Made by a program: the position numbers and the translations under genes
Assembly (NCBI GenBank): GCA_002838205.1
Contig: CP017950.1
Span: 1,308,858 to 1,372,857, forward strand
Direction: 5' to 3'
Origin: Tenericutes bacterium MZ-XQ
GTDB taxonomy: Bacteria > Bacillota_I > Bacilli_A > Acholeplasmatales > Acholeplasmataceae
DNA length: 64,000 nt
Shown here: piece by piece, positions 8,449-46,022 of the stretch
Position numbering within the stretch: position 1 is the stretch's first letter
Layout of the letters: each line of letters starts with the position of its first letter
The notes under the pieces: model-generated
Database searches by the model: none
Told to the model about the DNA's origin: nothing
What the model saw: the letters and a program-made list of their open reading frames with translations, nothing else

Positions 8449-10816
8449 ATACAAGTTTTTCTGGTTTATGAAAATAATAGCCTTGTTGTAGATAAATATC
8501 GTTTTGCATTAACTGATGACTAACTTCTAAAGTCTCGACGCTTTCTGCAATAACTAACTTGTTTTCGAGCTTACCGATATGAGAGATCATTCGCACGATT
8601 TCACTATTTTTTTCGGAACCTAAATGATTAATAAATGAACCATCAATTTTAATGATGTCATATGATACAGATTCAAGTACAGCAAGTGATGAGTACTCAC
8701 TACCAAAATCATCAATAGCGATTAAAAATCCTAAGCTTTGATAATGTTGAATCATTTCTCTGCAAATATTTAAGTTATGTACAAAAGTGTTTTCAGATAC
8801 TTCAACAATGATATCTTGATTAGAAATGCCATATGTTTTAGCATAATCGCTTAATAAGTGTGAAAATCCTTTCTTTAAAAACATTTCCGGAGTCAAATTA
8901 ACGGATAGTTTAAGAGATTTATAGCTTTTATCTGTTTTTAGTTTGCTAAAATAATTAAAACTCTTTTTAACTAAGTGTGTTTCTAACATTTCAAGCAAAC
9001 TTGACCTTCTGGCAACGTTGAAAAATTCATAAGGACTAACAAAGCCTAACATTGAATCTTTCCATCTAGCTAAAGATTCAACATATACATGTTTTTTTTG
9101 GTTGACATCATGAATGAATTGAAAATGAACATCAATTTGGTTTTTTTGAATGGCATCATATAGACGATTTGATAATATTATATTTTTCTCAAGATTAGAT
9201 TTCATCAATGGTTGATACATCGTTACTTGATTATACGTAGTATCATGTTTATAATATGATGCCAATCCAGCATAAATAATTAAATCATCAAAACTAGCTG
9301 TGTGATTCGGATATAAAGCATATCCAATGCGCTTTTTGATACGAATATAAGTATCCTTAACATAATATGTTTTTATGATTTGCTCTTCTAGCACCTCAAT
9401 AAGCTGTTCAACTCTAACTTTTGATGGGTTAATTAGCATAATCACAAACTGATCTTCGATAAAGTTTGAGATAATATCTTTTTCTTGAATAAGGTTTTTG
9501 AGATTTTGTCCAATTGTCTTTAACAACTGATTAGCTATATCAATTCCATAATAATCGATCACTTCGAAGAAATTATTGACATCAATGACAAAACAAGCTA
9601 CATTGATATCTTTATCTAGTGTTTTGAGATGTTTTGATAAACCATTACTATTTAAAAGTTGTGTCACTTGATTATAATTTGCTTGATACTCCAAAGATTT
9701 TTGTAACTCAGTAAGTTTAGTAATATCTTCACCGATTGAAATGATACTCTTGGGATGGCCAAGTGCATCATTGATGAGTACATTTTTCCATGATATAACA
9801 AATGTTTTATCATTCTTTTTGTATTCAATAACACTCCGAGTTATCTTCTTTTCAATGACTTCCTTGACCCAATCATTATCATCATCATGAAGGTTCTTAC
9901 CTACATTATTGATATACGTCCCAAAGATTTTTTTAGGATCCAAATCAAAGATCTCACAATAACGATTTGAAGCTTGAACGATATGCCCATGAATATCTGT
10001 TGTAGTCATCAGTTCGTTCGTATTTTCTATAACTTTTTTACTAGCTAAATTCAATTCTGAAAGCTCATTTTTAGTCAGTGCTAATTGTTTTTTCATTGCA
10101 TCTACATCGGTAATATCAAAAGCAATCCAATATGTTCGATCTGCTTGACTTGAAGCATATATAACAAAAAGTAATGCCTGATCAAAAACAGGCAGATCTA
10201 AAGTGATTTCTCTAAATTGATCATCCTCTGATTCTAGTGTTAGTTGTTTGAATTTTTCTTGATCTTCAACACTCATAAACTTAGAAAAATCTTCTTCGTA
10301 ATAAATTTGAGCTTCACTTTTAACTCGATAGTTTTTAATGAAACTATCTGTAAATTGACAAATGTATTTTTTTTGTTTATGATCAAACTCAATATAGATT
10401 GCTCTACTGTTTTCAAATGCTAATTTATGTATGAATTTTCTTTTTTGAACTCTATATAAAAACTTGAAAATACCTATTCCAAAAATAGCCATATTTAACA
10501 TAAACAATCCATGATATATGACATCAATGGTTTGATTAACCTCTAAGATTTGTTGATTATTATGTATGATTTCAAAAACAAGTTCGAAAGTGAATAAAGC
10601 AATGAACATTAGAGCTGATATCAATAAGTATTTGTTCCCATCCAAAATTGTTAGGATTAATAGCAAAAATGAAATCAATAAAGTTGCTGAAATCGTTATC
10701 GTAGGATGCAAAAAAAGGTAGTCTTCATGTAGTAACACAAAGAATACATAAGTGAAGTACAAAATATATAAGATATGACCTACTCGAACGAGTTTACGTA
10801 AATTTAGTCGATTCAT
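8447..10816 (-). CDS. Membrane PAS-GGDEF-EAL cyclic-di-GMP phosphodiesterase
   Basis: A 789-residue signalling protein. Four hydrophobic segments (about 15-125) are followed by two PAS-like regions (about 135-240 and 265-375), a GGDEF-like domain (380-535) and an EAL domain (545-789). The GGDEF site reads IEDQF, so cyclase activity is unlikely. The EAL domain keeps most catalytic positions in slightly altered form: ESLAR for EALxR, NLTP, IDDFGSEYSSL, DIIKIDG, AESVET and QGYYFHKP. It therefore probably hydrolyses cyclic di-GMP in response to a sensed signal. The frame is open three codons further upstream, but the AAAGGA Shine-Dalgarno is best spaced for the ATG used here. No diguanylate cyclase with an intact GGDEF motif lies in the window. 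Confidence 0.85.
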   Translation of the reverse strand: MNRLNLRKLVRVGHILYILYFTYVFFVLLHEDYLFLHPTITISATLLISFLLLILTILDGNKYLLISALMFIALFTFELVFEIIHNNQQILEVNQTIDVIYHGLFMLNMAIFGIGIFKFLYRVQKRKFIHKLAFENSRAIYIEFDHKQKKYICQFTDSFIKNYRVKSEAQIYYEEDFSKFMSVEDQEKFKQLTLESEDDQFREITLDLPVFDQALLFVIYASSQADRTYWIAFDITDVDAMKKQLALTKNELSELNLASKKVIENTNELMTTTDIHGHIVQASNRYCEIFDLDPKKIFGTYINNVGKNLHDDDNDWVKEVIEKKITRSVIEYKKNDKTFVISWKNVLINDALGHPKSIISIGEDITKLTELQKSLEYQANYNQVTQLLNSNGLSKHLKTLDKDINVACFVIDVNNFFEVIDYYGIDIANQLLKTIGQNLKNLIQEKDIISNFIEDQFVIMLINPSKVRVEQLIEVLEEQIIKTYYVKDTYIRIKKRIGYALYPNHTASFDDLIIYAGLASYYKHDTTYNQVTMYQPLMKSNLEKNIILSNRLYDAIQKNQIDVHFQFIHDVNQKKHVYVESLARWKDSMLGFVSPYEFFNVARRSSLLEMLETHLVKKSFNYFSKLKTDKSYKSLKLSVNLTPEMFLKKGFSHLLSDYAKTYGISNQDIIVEVSENTFVHNLNICREMIQHYQSLGFLIAIDDFGSEYSSLAVLESVSYDIIKIDGSFINHLGSEKNSEIVRMISHIGKLENKLVIAESVETLEVSHQLMQNDIYLQQGYYFHKPEKLV

Positions 10817-10911
10817 TAAAGTCATCCTTTCGCTATTTCGATTATAGCAAAATATACTATTTTTATAAATACACTTAATGAAAATGTAAGAATTACTTTT
10901 GCAAAGCGATA

Positions 10912-10937
10912 AAAAACCCAGATTATACTGGGTTTTT
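10912..10937 (-). terminator. Terminator after the GH65 gene
   Basis: Nine-base stem AAAACCCAG / CTGGGTTTT with loop ATTATA and a following T run on the minus strand, overlapping the GH65 stop. Confidence 0.8.
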
Positions 10938-13169
10938 TATGATATTATATTTAAGATTATCTTTGATTTCGATACTTCTCCCATATAGGTTCATCTTTAT
11001 TGGACGATCAACTTCTATGTATAAAATGTTATCTTTTATTTGTAAATCAACGGTTGTCCTCTGATAAATAATGGTTGTTTTAATAGACGATATATGCGTT
11101 TGATAAACTGGATTTAGTTCAAATGTTTGATTAAATCTGAATCCTAATATACCATAAATTAGCATTAAATAACTTCCGCCTAAATTCGCAATATGCAGTC
11201 CATGTTGGGTACGATTATGACTATCTCTAAAGTCAAGTTCCGCAACCCTTTTAAAAAACTCATAAGCTAAATCAGTATATCCAATCTGATATGCTGAAAT
11301 ACCATAAATACATTTAGATAGACTCGAATCATGGGTTGTCCTTTTAATATAGTAGTCAAAGCTATTTTTGTACATGTCTTTATCAACTTCATTAAATAGA
11401 ACTAGTGCTAATATGGCATCAGCCTGTTTAATTATTTGATACCTATAGATAAATAAAGGATGGTAATAAAGTAACAAAGGGAATTTATCACTATCAAGAT
11501 CTGAGATATTGATGTCTTTTTTACTTAAAAATGAATCATCTTGTTTTACTATATTTAACTGATCATCTACTAATAGAGTCATGTTTTTATATGCTTTTTC
11601 AAGTAAGATGATGTCTTCTTCTTTCAAATCAGTTTTAAGGAGCACATCTTTAAGTTCATCTTTATGCGATGAAATGTAATCATGAGTAAACTTGAAATGA
11701 TGCTTTGCAGCATTATTTGTGTAATAATTGTCATTGATTAAGACCGTATACTCATCAGGTCCTGTGACATTATAGATATGGAATTTTCCATCTTTAAAAT
11801 GTCCATAGTCAAGGAGAAATAAGGCAGTTTCTATAATTATCTCCATGCCATATTCAATCATGAATCCCTCATCTTTAGTCGCATAATAATAATTAATGAT
11901 TGCAAGTGCAATATCACTATTGATATGAACTTGCGCACTACCTGCAGGAAAATAAGGAGATGCTTCTTTTCCATTGATAGTTCTCCATGGGATTTTTGCA
12001 CCTCTATGACATCCCAGTTGTTTTGCTTCATGTCTTGCTTCATCTAATGTGTAATATCTGTAAAGTAGTAATTCTTTGGCTTTTTTGGGATCAGTTAAGA
12101 TAAAAAATGGAAGCATATATGTTTCTGTATCCCAAAAAAAGTGCCCTTCGTATCCTTCACCTGAAATACCCTTAGCTGCAATATGCATATGATAATTCGT
12201 TGATGCACTTTGACTGAGTTGATACAAATTATATCGTAATGCTTGATTAATATCAGTATCAGATAGTTCAACTAACGATTTATCCCAAAAAGCGATGCGT
12301 TCTTTTCTTTCTTCTTGTAAGTATGCATCAAATGGTTTACACATCTTTTCAATATACTTGATATCCTTTTCATGATTTTCGTGTGTTAATGACGACGTGT
12401 AATATGTATATTTTGTAAATGATATAGGCTTGTTTTTTGATAGGTAAGCTTCTCGTAATCCGATGATTTCATGATCTTTGATTTGATAATTGAATGCTTG
12501 ATCATGTGTGATTGCTGCATTGATAAAAAGCGATGTATTTGTTGTCTTAGCGTACAATAATCCATGTTTATCATCTGTTTTTAAATCAATCAGTTCTAAA
12601 TGTTTTCTCGTATTTGGTAGTCTCGGATCTGTATTTTCAACATATCTAATAGCGGGTAACCTAAGATATGATTGAAGTTTAATTTTTCCTTCATAATTTG
12701 GAGATGATAAATCTAGTTTCGTAACAATTAAGTTTTGTTTAGAAGTTACCATTTTTTCTTCTATAAGATCAAAAATATATCCTTTATCAGATATGTATCT
12801 TACTTTTCGATATGATGTACCTTCTAACATGTTTAGTGACCGTTTGATGGAAACAAGCTCCATATGTGATAAATCAATGATATCATCATCAACAACTATC
12901 TTGACATAAGACCCATCAGGAAGGTTTACAATCGTTTGCCCAAGTTGTGGAAATCCTTCATAATTTTCTTCATAACGGAAAGGATATTGATTATAAAATC
13001 CATTCATTAGTGTGATTGGATCATCATTTGTTCCATAACCTTCAATAAAATGTCCTCTTGTGCCTAGTGTACCGTTAGCAAGCGAAAAAATTGTTTCATC
13101 TGATAATAAATCTTCTAGTTTTAAACGATCTTCTCTAGTAACTATAAAATCTTCTTTTTTATATTTCAT
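10923..13169 (-). CDS. GH65 alpha-glucoside phosphorylase
   Basis: A 748-residue GH65 enzyme with the N-terminal beta-sandwich, (alpha/alpha)6 barrel and C-terminal beta domain of the family. GHFFWDTETYMLPFF and VTGPDEYT are conserved; the Glu in the latter is the catalytic acid. Members phosphorolyse maltose, trehalose, kojibiose or nigerose to beta-glucose 1-phosphate; which one is not decidable here. The frame is open 14 codons further upstream, but a TTGAGA/TATAAT promoter occupies that stretch, so translation must begin downstream of it, most likely at this ATG. It is monocistronic between two terminators. No beta-phosphoglucomutase, the usual partner, is in the window. Confidence 0.87.
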   Translation of the reverse strand: MKYKKEDFIVTREDRLKLEDLLSDETIFSLANGTLGTRGHFIEGYGTNDDPITLMNGFYNQYPFRYEENYEGFPQLGQTIVNLPDGSYVKIVVDDDIIDLSHMELVSIKRSLNMLEGTSYRKVRYISDKGYIFDLIEEKMVTSKQNLIVTKLDLSSPNYEGKIKLQSYLRLPAIRYVENTDPRLPNTRKHLELIDLKTDDKHGLLYAKTTNTSLFINAAITHDQAFNYQIKDHEIIGLREAYLSKNKPISFTKYTYYTSSLTHENHEKDIKYIEKMCKPFDAYLQEERKERIAFWDKSLVELSDTDINQALRYNLYQLSQSASTNYHMHIAAKGISGEGYEGHFFWDTETYMLPFFILTDPKKAKELLLYRYYTLDEARHEAKQLGCHRGAKIPWRTINGKEASPYFPAGSAQVHINSDIALAIINYYYATKDEGFMIEYGMEIIIETALFLLDYGHFKDGKFHIYNVTGPDEYTVLINDNYYTNNAAKHHFKFTHDYISSHKDELKDVLLKTDLKEEDIILLEKAYKNMTLLVDDQLNIVKQDDSFLSKKDINISDLDSDKFPLLLYYHPLFIYRYQIIKQADAILALVLFNEVDKDMYKNSFDYYIKRTTHDSSLSKCIYGISAYQIGYTDLAYEFFKRVAELDFRDSHNRTQHGLHIANLGGSYLMLIYGILGFRFNQTFELNPVYQTHISSIKTTIIYQRTTVDLQIKDNILYIEVDRPIKMNLYGRSIEIKDNLKYNIIKNPV

Positions 13170-43441: not shown

Positions 43442-43515
43442 GCCCCCATAGTTTAATGGCAAAACGCAGCAATGGTAATGCTGAAATACAAGTTCGATTC
43501 TCGTTGGGGGCACCA
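43442..43515 (+). tRNA. tRNA-Thr (anticodon GGT)
   Basis: A 74-base tRNA with encoded CCA. Acceptor stem GCCCCCA / TGGGGGC is fully paired, the D stem is GTTT / AAAC with G18-G19 in the loop, the anticodon stem CAGCA / TGCTG encloses ATGGTAA (anticodon GGT), and the T loop is TTCGATT. One A-C mismatch lies in the T stem (ACAAG / CTCGT). It reads Thr ACC and ACU codons. Its 3' end faces the prophage, which begins about 110 bases downstream, a common arrangement for a phage attachment site. Confidence 0.88.
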
Positions 43516-43579
43516 TTAGATGATAAATCGAACTATATGATATACAAAGGATATATTATTTATAGATTCGTATTTTGAT

Positions 43580-43625
43580 AAAAAAACAATCAGCTAACTC
43601 CCCCCCCCAGGCTGGTTGTTTTTTT
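43580..43625. terminator. Terminator at the prophage left end, loop with a nine-C tract
   Basis: Arms AACAATCAGC (43585-43594) and GCTGGTTGTT (43611-43620), one mismatch, flanked by A and T runs on each side so it can work in both directions. The 16-base loop contains nine consecutive C residues (43600-43608), very unusual in this AT-rich sequence. Confidence 0.7.
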
Positions 43626-43626
43626 A

Positions 43627-44577
43627 TTATCTATCGAAACGTGGATCTATAAAATTAAGAGTAGTAATAATTGTACTTAAACCATTCTCTTCATTTAATA
43701 CTTCTTTTACTTTAGCAATACATACTTGAGAATCGACAAAATCCTCTATTTTAAGAACCGTTCTCTTTGCTAACTCTCCAACTGTATAACCTTGTTGATC
43801 TGTAACTCCAAATCCTGTTTTATATTCTTCATCTTCTTTTAGATATAGAACGTCACCAACTTTTAAATAGCTAATTCTATCTTGTCTATATGTTTCATCA
43901 TCAAACTTATCAACATTTACTAATTTTGCATCAACACTTGTAACATACTCACTATTTTCTATATCAATACTTCGATAAAATGCAATTTTTATCTTAGCAA
44001 ATTTGTTTTCAATATTTGCATTTATAAATCCAATGTGAATGTCGATATCTTCTACGTTAGCATATTCTTTTATGCTTGCTGCAACTTCAGGATCAGTCAC
44101 TTCAAAAATGAATTCATTATCCTTATCAGGATTAGCTATAAAGAAAACTTTATCATCTTTTATCTCATAGTGAATTTGATATTCTATATTGGTTACATTT
44201 AGATTATCTGGTAGTTTAAAATCTCTCTTATATCTAAATTTTCTAATCCATTTTCCATTTGCAACCGTTGGATCACCATAGTGAGAAAAATCAAATACCT
44301 TTTTTTCCTCTCTTCTATTAACATGCTGCTCATTTTCATAACTGTAATTTTTTTCAGTTGAGTGAACTTGTTTTTTGTTTTTTGATTTCTTGATAAAATA
44401 TCTAATCACAAAAACCATTTCAAGAGTAAATAAACCAGTCATTAAGAATGCTACTATTGTGTTACCAGCAGTTTCGCTATTTTCATCAAATAAAAGGGAA
44501 AAGACTATGATGAATATCCATATAGAAAGATGAAATATTATTTTGTCTCTTTTTGATAATTGATCGTATACTTTCAT
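43627..44577 (-). CDS. Membrane-anchored HIRAN-like protein, prophage cargo
   Basis: A 316-residue protein. Two hydrophobic segments (about 13-30 and 38-60) anchor a cytoplasmic remainder that begins with a Lys-rich stretch. Residues about 100-220 are charged and unrecognised. The C-terminal 85 residues (LKVGDVLYLKEDEEY...GYTVGELAKRTVL...AKVKEV) follow the pattern of a HIRAN domain, which binds DNA ends or occurs in nucleic-acid surveillance proteins. It is the last prophage gene and overlaps its seven-TM partner by four bases. Position and separate promoter suggest a lysogenic-conversion or superinfection-exclusion role; this is inference. Confidence 0.6.
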   Translation of the reverse strand: MKVYDQLSKRDKIIFHLSIWIFIIVFSLLFDENSETAGNTIVAFLMTGLFTLEMVFVIRYFIKKSKNKKQVHSTEKNYSYENEQHVNRREEKKVFDFSHYGDPTVANGKWIRKFRYKRDFKLPDNLNVTNIEYQIHYEIKDDKVFFIANPDKDNEFIFEVTDPEVAASIKEYANVEDIDIHIGFINANIENKFAKIKIAFYRSIDIENSEYVTSVDAKLVNVDKFDDETYRQDRISYLKVGDVLYLKEDEEYKTGFGVTDQQGYTVGELAKRTVLKIEDFVDSQVCIAKVKEVLNEENGLSTIITTLNFIDPRFDR

Positions 44578-45377
44578 TTTTTCTCACCACCATCTTTATT
44601 TCTAATTAAATCAAAGAACAATGGTATGAAAATAGCAGTAGCAATCAGATGGAAAACATCTCGTGTAGCATTGAATTTCATATGAAATGGTTCATCAATT
44701 GTTGTTCTAAAGTCTAATTCTGCTAAGTGGAAAAATGAGAACATTACACCAATTAATAAAACCAATATTATTCTTTTCCAATGGATATGTTTGTTTAAAT
44801 AACTGTTTGCTGCTTCAATCTTATTTTCATTGGATTTATTATACTTATCTCTAGCAAGTTCATAAATAAAATACATGTAAGTTATCAGTGCAACATAAGC
44901 AATCCCAACAATTCTCAGAAACATAACAAAAGCAATGTTCTTATCTGCAGAAAAGTCAAACATTCCTAGTAAGTTAAATATTTCAGTAGGATCCATATAT
45001 GCTAATACCATTTCGATCATAACAACAATAAGTAATAAAAAAGGCACGAAAGATACTGTAATCAATAATTCGCCGTTAATTTTGCTTTTATCATCAAGTA
45101 GTTCTTTAGCTTTTTGATTAAGCATTATATCGTAAGAAATGATTGCAAAAAATGATAGAAAAGCTGATGTAATTACATATTTTTGTGGAACTTCTGTGAT
45201 TATTAAAACCACATAAACAATAAAAAGAGCAATAACTAAACCAAGTCCAATTCTCCTTTTTATCTTGTACTCATCTTTCTGAATTTTTTCATTAAAGTAT
45301 AGCAGTTTAAGCGGAAACATCCATACTGAAAAAATCATAACAATAGCAATAGATCCAAATATTTGTGAAAATGACAT
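44574..45377 (-). CDS. Seven-segment membrane protein, prophage cargo
   Basis: A 267-residue protein with about seven hydrophobic segments (near 2-21, 40-60, 63-82, 99-124, 145-168, 197-218 and 236-254) and no recognisable domain. It starts at ATG behind GGGGG; the frame is open four codons further. It has its own TATAAT promoter, downstream of the terminator that ends the late operon, so it can be expressed in the lysogen. It is coupled to the HIRAN-like gene. The pair is not a phage structural module that I know. Confidence 0.6.
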   Translation of the reverse strand: MSFSQIFGSIAIVMIFSVWMFPLKLLYFNEKIQKDEYKIKRRIGLGLVIALFIVYVVLIITEVPQKYVITSAFLSFFAIISYDIMLNQKAKELLDDKSKINGELLITVSFVPFLLLIVVMIEMVLAYMDPTEIFNLLGMFDFSADKNIAFVMFLRIVGIAYVALITYMYFIYELARDKYNKSNENKIEAANSYLNKHIHWKRIILVLLIGVMFSFFHLAELDFRTTIDEPFHMKFNATRDVFHLIATAIFIPLFFDLIRNKDGGEKK

Positions 45378-45398
45378 ATAAACCCCCATATAGTTTTT

Positions 45399-45427
45399 CT
45401 TTAATTATAATCTAAAAACAAAAAAAA
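45399..45427 (-). promoter_or_regulatory. Own promoter of the terminal prophage gene pair
   Basis: TATAAT on the minus strand (about 45404-45409) with a T-rich, weak -35 region overlapping the preceding terminator. It would allow expression of the pair independently of the late operon. Confidence 0.45.
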
Positions 45428-45453
45428 GCAAAGTTTCTATATGACTTTGCTTT
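45422..45453 (-). terminator. Terminator of the prophage late operon
   Basis: Ten-base perfect stem AAAGCAAAGT / ACTTTGCTTT with a nine-base loop and T run on the minus strand, after the coiled-coil gene. Confidence 0.85.
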
Positions 45454-45461
45454 TGGTTTAA

Positions 45462-46022
45462 TTAGATGATGTTGTTTTCGATTAACAACTTGATTTCTTC
45501 AATGGTGTGTTCTAACCTTTGATTTCTTTCTCTTAGAGTTTTGTTTTCTGCTTCCAGTTCAGCAACTCTAGGATCCTCTTGAGGCTCTTCACGAACTTCT
45601 TCAGGTTCTTGAACTGGTTCTTCTTCTGAAGGTCTAACTTCTCCTGATAGATCAACTGGTTGAACACTTTCTTCCTGAAATGAAGTTTCTTCTTGTTCTT
45701 CCTCTACGGGATCTTCAATCTCATCTTCTTCAGGATCTGCAGTAATAACAATTTCTTCAATTGGTTCATCTGCTTCCTCTTTGATTTCTTCAAGTTCAGC
45801 TTGGCCAATACTTGACATAAGGTTTTCATATTGCTCATCATTAATGTTTAAGATGATTTTAACTTCTTCAGGTTTTAACTGAACAGCAGTTTTTTTCTCA
45901 TCATCATATCGATAAGCACTTGTTGCTGATGCAACACCAACAGCAACTACACCATTTAACTTAGCTTCTTCTTGAAGTTTTTGTAAGTCCTGGATGTTTT
46001 TGATTTGACCATATATTCTCAT
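45462..46022 (-). CDS. Acidic prophage protein with C-terminal coiled coil
   Basis: A 186-residue protein. Residues 1-70 are mixed, 75-145 are extremely acidic with many Glu-Glu and Pro-Val repeats, and 148-186 (VAELEAENKTLRERNQRLEHTIEEIKLL) form a leucine-zipper-like coiled coil. It is the last gene of the late operon, where other phages carry lysis genes, and overlaps the membrane-protein gene by four bases. No enzymatic motif is seen. It might be a virion-associated or scaffold-type protein. Confidence 0.65.
   Translation of the reverse strand: MRIYGQIKNIQDLQKLQEEAKLNGVVAVGVASATSAYRYDDEKKTAVQLKPEEVKIILNINDEQYENLMSSIGQAELEEIKEEADEPIEEIVITADPEEDEIEDPVEEEQEETSFQEESVQPVDLSGEVRPSEEEPVQEPEEVREEPQEDPRVAELEAENKTLRERNQRLEHTIEEIKLLIENNII

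Follow-up and report, generated by a model that had tools for sequence, protein, structure and literature searches.

The closest described parallel to the locus analysed here is RexAB, a prophage-encoded system whose membrane protein responds to a DNA-binding sensor (PMC12894663; PMC11077077). Similar two-gene prophage systems occur in actinobacterial phages (PMC7542560). The RexAB-type systems used for comparison were those of lambda, the P. putida P1 prophage, Sbash (gp30/31), and CarolAnn and Butters (gp30/31). HIRAN domains are best known from fork-remodelling enzymes, for example HLTF and Rad5, in which they serve to bind DNA ends. To our knowledge, exclusion systems in wall-less hosts have been little studied. 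Here we describe an overlapping gene pair at one end of a prophage, which codes for a protein with seven transmembrane (TM) segments and for a membrane-anchored protein with HIRAN-like domains. The reading we favour, which we regard as possible but stop short of calling probable, is that the pair is a two-gene cargo cassette in a terminator-flanked slot and would protect the lysogen in a RexAB-like manner, through a HIRAN sensor and a seven-TM effector.

The window, that is, the whole stretch of 64,000 nucleotides under analysis (1,308,858-1,372,857), is part of a complete chromosome of 2.157 Mb. No MraY-family protein (PF00953) was detected in the host, while 12 of 14 control genomes contained one. 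This fits a wall-less bacterium, and the host appears to be Mollicute-like. The right-hand portion of the window is occupied by a prophage of the HK97-type siphophage class, whose terminase, portal, major head and tape-measure proteins match PHROGs. Its boundary in the window lies at ~43,510, within the 3' end of a tRNA-Thr(GGT) gene (43442-43515, + strand; identified with ARAGORN); the opposite boundary falls outside the window, near 1,387,540, and the prophage is thus ~35.2 kb long.

The tRNA gene provides the attachment site, and its 3' end contains the core GCACCATT common to attL and attR. Alignment with the intact phage-form integrase (L034 9802-11334) identified attR, at 43507-43578 (+), as the site at which the serine-integrase gene of the phage has left its 3' end stranded (...SNYMIYKGYIIYRFVF). 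At attL, the serine integrase (L051 14104-15636) has a C-terminal tail that differs from the intact form. The altered tail at attL and the phage tail left behind at attR together place attP inside the serine integrase gene, at its 3' end, and integration is predicted to swap the ~20 last integrase codons for host-derived codons. With attP in this position, the gene pair would be convergent with the integrase gene in the phage form. The phage also has a 217-aa tyrosine-recombinase-like protein (phrog_216; L051 9854-10507 (-) and L034 14744-15397 (+)), which is 99% identical between the two phages; the serine integrases are 67% identical.

On the other side of the pair lies the late operon, which is closed by membrane-protein genes. 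Its last gene ahead of the pair encodes a backbone protein of 186 aa (45462-46022, -) that is 75% identical in the phage contig L034. The same gene is also the final one before the corresponding site in L080, a decayed sibling prophage located at the tmRNA gene of the same chromosome (positions 6814-9588 of L080, itself G000 1,180,000-1,195,000). An intrinsic terminator of the late operon follows at 45424-45454 (-), formed by a hairpin of -10.3 kcal/mol (z -2.6) and a U run, and is near-identical in L034 and L080. At the attR side, a second terminator (about 43583-43625, no strand assigned; hairpin -14.1 kcal/mol) is conserved in the same two phages and would also serve the convergent integrase gene of the phage form. 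Its loop contains a run of nine C (43601-43609) that is seven long in L034, so its length varies. Between the upstream terminator and the first gene of the pair stands a TATAAT (45404-45409, -), a -10-like box conserved in L034 and L080. Neither the sequence nor the promoter scan revealed a recognisable -35 upstream of it; the scan listed no promoter at the box, and the region has fewer matches than its shuffles.

In L034 (IMGVR_UViG_3300017698_000165), the cassette is present as a whole, its seven-TM protein being 82% and its 316-aa protein 59% identical to those in the window. L080 shares with the window prophage the last late gene, the upstream terminator, the TATAAT and the downstream terminator, yet holds between them a different ATGA-overlapping pair, which encodes a 74-aa protein and a 207-aa member of an acetyltransferase family (phrog_1758). 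A transposase-like gene (10021-11751) lies beside this decayed prophage. In L081, a more distant relative, the same late genes precede two others, a small HTH gene and one that is protease-like. The same borders around a different cassette in L080 mark this site as a cargo slot. The pair in the window is an autonomous, terminator-bounded unit exchanged between related phages, which makes it a prophage moron or cargo cassette. Because the TATAAT also precedes the unrelated cassette of L080, the box belongs to the slot rather than to the cassette; separate promotion of the pair is plausible, yet not pair-specific, and we infer that the pair is expressed in the lysogen. An earlier sequence-only reading of this locus had described it as prophage-end cargo beside the tRNA, behind a late-operon terminator and its own -10 box. 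The hairpin at 45454-45424 (-), the identity of the tRNA 3' end with attR and the alternative two-gene cassette of the sibling bear out the first two points; the -10 box exists, but as an element of the slot.

The architecture of the slot also bears on a late function, in which the pair would be read through from the late operon and help virions to assemble or to leave a wall-less host across its membrane. The pair does lie on the late-operon strand, directly after an operon that ends in membrane-protein genes. The conserved terminator in between speaks against this, as do the other genes in the slot of the related prophage, which make the pair dispensable for the virion cycle, and the location of distant HIRAN relatives outside late operons. 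We consider a role in assembly or release very unlikely. A plain assignment of the two genes to the late operon was rejected on the terminator and the swapped slot content.

A further three genes (185, 213 and 237 aa; L051 7579-9839, +) oppose the prophage early operon. Their products have N-terminal hydrophobic stretches, the 213-aa gene is 53% identical in L034, and the trio is possibly a second cargo site. The terminator-flanked slot itself offers a simple route to more cargo from this phage group.

Both genes of the cassette are on the reverse strand. The first (44574-45389, -) encodes the candidate membrane effector, a protein of 271 aa for which hydropathy indicates exactly seven TM segments, as in the L034 homologue, and positive charges on the inside indicate an N-out/C-in topology. 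Its start is likely Met5 (ATG 45377), which is preceded by GGGGG at 45387-45383, rather than 45389. The second gene (43627-44577, -) encodes the 316-aa protein. Hydropathy and charges give this protein two TM segments (residues 13-31 and 40-58) with N-in/C-in topology, and the same number is found in L034. The resulting hairpin (residues 13-58) is followed by a variable linker (residues 67-93) and by two predicted cytoplasmic domains, at about residues 109-205 and 206-316. The genes overlap by 4 bp (ATGA, 44574-44577, -), as they do in L034 (8813-8816), and translational coupling of the pair is likely. We infer that the two proteins are in physical contact via the TM hairpin. On the overlap, the seven segments and the membrane anchoring of the HIRAN-like protein, the sequence-only reading was correct.

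The gene order and overlap are relevant to toxin-antitoxin-like maintenance, in which the seven-TM protein would be a membrane toxin and the membrane-bound HIRAN protein would restrain it, so that the prophage is stabilised and any defence effect is secondary. The L080 slot cassette, with its acetyltransferase-family (phrog_1758) and 74-aa proteins, looks like a toxin-antitoxin type and has the same ATGA overlap. The order in the window would place the toxin first, which is less usual in type II systems. Moreover, both partners are membrane proteins, and neither has a sequence link to toxin families in Pfam, NCBIfam or PADLOC. Putative antitoxins of Hip kinases do include proteins with HIRAN domains (PMC8262856). 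Taken together, we judge a maintenance role to be unlikely.

The sequence-only reading had described the 316-aa protein as having a HIRAN-like C-terminus and had proposed profile searches for HIRAN there. Neither the window protein nor its L034 homologue matches Pfam HIRAN (PF08797; cut-off 24.7 bits), and the evidence comes instead from three distant relatives. L035 (genome G238) is a full-length homologue of 307 aa with two TM segments and a Pfam HIRAN match at residues 118-191 (31.3 bits). L054 (G350) combines TM segments with the same pair of domains, its Pfam HIRAN match being over the cut-off. L041 (G532) is a soluble homologue in which Pfam HIRAN (residues 220-308, 43.5 bits) is followed by the same second domain; used as a query, its two-domain module finds the window protein within the window's own genome at E 1.3e-5. 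For the second domain, the profile of the relatives aligned with 12 HIRANs in hhalign with a probability of 95.9 and a score of 51.4, compared with a maximum of 16.4 in 100 column shuffles, and the profile of the window and L034 proteins aligned with that of the relatives with a probability of 96.8. Compared with HIRAN on its own, the window and L034 second domain scored 19.0, marginal against a shuffle maximum of 18.0.

Structure prediction points in the same direction at low-to-moderate confidence. The AlphaFold model of residues 88-316, built from two sequences only, had a mean pLDDT of 59 and a pTM of 0.48; the full 316-aa protein on its own reached a mean pLDDT of 43. With this low-confidence model, Foldseek returned chains of 3k2y, which we take to be itself HIRAN-like, as the top three matches and HLTF HIRAN chains from rank 14. 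In VIA-align, domain 1 of the same low-confidence model matched Rad5 with Z 7.6, and domain 2 matched 3k2y with Z 7.9 and the HLTF HIRAN 6kcs with Z 6.3, all below 8. From the Pfam matches of the relatives, the profile comparison and the low-confidence model, the cytoplasmic part most likely consists of two HIRAN-type barrels, not one. The protein is therefore filed as HIRAN-like by homology through its relatives and not as a Pfam member; the HIRAN call of the earlier reading holds through those relatives and the model, but applies to two tandem domains instead of the C-terminus alone, in a protein to which Pfam itself is blind. A PHROG of unknown function, phrog_37629, weakly matches residues 209-279 (E 7e-5). 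A separate HIRAN protein (52.8 bits) with hydrophobic N-terminal segments is encoded in the same family of bacteria (L004 1216-2469 (-), genome G007) and represents an independent membrane-anchored HIRAN architecture.

In HLTF structures, the NxYDxNA motif helps to hold the DNA 3' end. All three distant relatives carry this pocket motif in domain 1; the window protein lacks it in both domains, and its domain 2 retains an R in an RQD-type context. Every domain of the family is acidic, with net charges of -3 to -16. Bacterial HIRANs have been judged by such motifs before (PMC8262856), and the Rad5 HIRAN also binds a protein partner, PCNA (PMC7804152). The loss of the canonical motif and the acidity of the domains make DNA-end sensing doubtful. 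Considered with the Rad5-PCNA precedent, they suggest a protein or an unusual nucleic-acid structure as the possible ligand, instead of a free 3' end.

A direct search with the HIRAN-like gene found no relative in genome contigs (84,980 genomes), phages or plasmids, and a single phage contig, L034, among viral contigs. When viral contigs, phages and plasmids were searched with the tandem module of the relatives, one weak plasmid match was obtained. For the seven-TM protein, nothing significant was found in Pfam, NCBIfam, PADLOC, PDB or phages, and a search of 336 Bacilli genomes returned one marginal, partial-length match, which leaves L034 as its useful relative. No such partner was found beside the distant tandem-HIRAN relatives. 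The pair was recovered whole in one phage contig; the distant relatives have the HIRAN protein without the seven-TM protein. The earlier reading knew of no described system with this pair, and we likewise found none, either in the model collections of PADLOC, Pfam, NCBIfam and PHROGs or in the literature searched.

The genes around the three distant relatives, two of which (L035 and L054) carry N-terminal TM segments, provide indirect support for a role in defence. In G350, the tandem-HIRAN gene precedes, by 221 bp, a type III-A CRISPR locus with a Csm6-like CARF-HEPN gene, Cas10 and Csm2; RAMP-like genes follow Csm2 on the same strand, and a sugar operon lies upstream of the tandem-HIRAN gene. 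In G238, the gene is ~1 kb from a cluster of methyltransferase, PbeC/DndD-like and PbeA-like genes, and is followed by an adjoining gene (L053 8811-9635 (-)) and then a WYL gene. By eye, the product of the adjoining gene shows a D...ExK pattern like that of PD-(D/E)XK nucleases, and it has a weak PADLOC PDC-M29B match. In G532, the gene sits on a mobile element with serine recombinases, adjoining a DEDDh exonuclease-BRCT gene with a match to a PADLOC candidate. These neighbourhoods, three in number and so few, are suggestive. PDC-M03B matches of the relatives were discarded as evidence of a defence system, since they sit on the HIRAN domain itself; the name PDC-M03 was not found in the literature searched.

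Morons often serve host-fitness roles, and the pair could be one of these, unrelated to phage and acting, for example, in membrane stress or transport. One metabolic neighbour is on record: in L071, a HIRAN protein with two TM segments adjoins a PTS/MurNAc operon. The remaining neighbours of the relatives are defence genes, and we regard a host-fitness role as improbable.

Comparison of the window and L034 revealed dN/dS values of 0.18 for the seven-TM protein and 0.22 for the HIRAN-like protein, which indicate purifying selection on both genes. Chance open reading frames were ruled out by the conservation of the pair in L034 and dN/dS of about 0.2. Identity is distributed unevenly within the HIRAN-like protein (62/66 in the TM hairpin, 4/20 in the linker, 73/111 in domain 1 and 43/109 in domain 2), and dS within this one gene increases from 0.65 for the hairpin to at least 1.3 for the domains. 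Such a jump inside a gene makes a recombination breakpoint a simpler cause than diversifying selection. Whichever the cause, the proposed sensor half is exchanged, or diverges more quickly than the part in the membrane. The small genes at the repressor position (L034 11306-11680, with a Pfam HTH, and L051 13715-14074) are 24% identical at the protein level, against up to 98% for late genes, which suggests that the two phages belong to different immunity groups.

The parallel divergence of the cytoplasmic half and the immunity region would fit superinfection exclusion at entry, in which the pair would block DNA injection by related phages at the membrane and leave the cell alive, with HIRAN as a docking scaffold. 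A membrane location, in an apparently wall-less host where the membrane is the main barrier, and a site beside attR would suit this too. The soluble domains are predicted to be cytoplasmic, and relatives exist outside phages; with these points against it, we rate exclusion at the entry step as unlikely.

According to the RexAB-like reading, which we prefer, the pair would protect the lysogen from other phages. The cytoplasmic tandem-HIRAN part would sense an infection signal, either a phage nucleic-acid intermediate or a phage protein at the membrane. The TM hairpin, which is nearly invariant, would relay the signal to the seven-TM partner; that protein would alter the membrane, and the infection would be stopped. 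This reading draws on the overlapping pair kept as a unit between backbone terminators in L034, on the other genes found at the same place in L080 and L081, and on purifying selection with a conserved hairpin and seven-TM protein beside a diverged linker and domain 2. The tandem-HIRAN identity, the defence and mobile neighbourhoods of the relatives and the RexAB precedent add to it. It is weakened by the missing pocket motif, the acidic domains and the restriction of seven-TM relatives to one phage contig; the divergence of the putative sensor also fits a recombination breakpoint. A wider proposal, which we put forward as speculative and on balance doubtful, is that Bacilli possess an undescribed class of infection sensors, the membrane-anchored tandem-HIRAN proteins. 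These would be used next to defence loci on the chromosome and, teamed with a seven-TM effector, as RexAB-like prophage cargo, and their pocket would have been rewired away from free 3' DNA ends.

Among known systems, the pair resembles RexAB in being a two-gene prophage cassette that combines a multi-pass membrane protein with a protein bearing cytoplasmic domains, and a sensor-effector logic is the proposed parallel. It differs in that the membrane partner has seven TM segments, whereas RexB has four, and in that the putative sensor is membrane-anchored and HIRAN-like, whereas RexA is soluble with an RdgC-type fold. No sequence relation to RexAB was found, and the function of the pair is a proposed one. 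A fold search with the low-confidence model listed HIRAN structures and not RexA, an absent match that does not exclude a RexA fold. By its number of TM segments and the lack of a sequence relation, the pair is classed outside RexAB.

With the HIRAN family (PF08797; HLTF, Rad5, bacterial HipN/HipL), the 316-aa protein shares distant homology, through relatives with significant Pfam matches, and probably the fold, as suggested by the low-confidence model. It departs from that family in having two tandem domains behind a TM hairpin, in having lost NxYDxNA, and in the absence of a helicase, RING or HipA kinase partner. Features of HipN/HipL were likewise missing, with no kinase or HipS match in either protein (Pfam, NCBIfam, PADLOC) and late phage genes as neighbours. 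The Bacilli tandem-HIRAN proteins, anchored in L035/G238 and L054/G350 and soluble in L041/G532, have the same cytoplasmic domain order as the window protein. Unlike it, they keep NxYDxNA in domain 1, are without a seven-TM partner, and are chromosomal or on a mobile element, not in a prophage cargo slot. The pair looks like prophage exclusion cargo with a new sensor architecture, its function being a prediction. If this is true, the membrane-tethered tandem HIRAN, which recurs in Bacilli near defence genes and is paired here with a seven-TM protein, would carry sensor-effector exclusion of the RexAB type over to another sensor fold and to apparently wall-less hosts.
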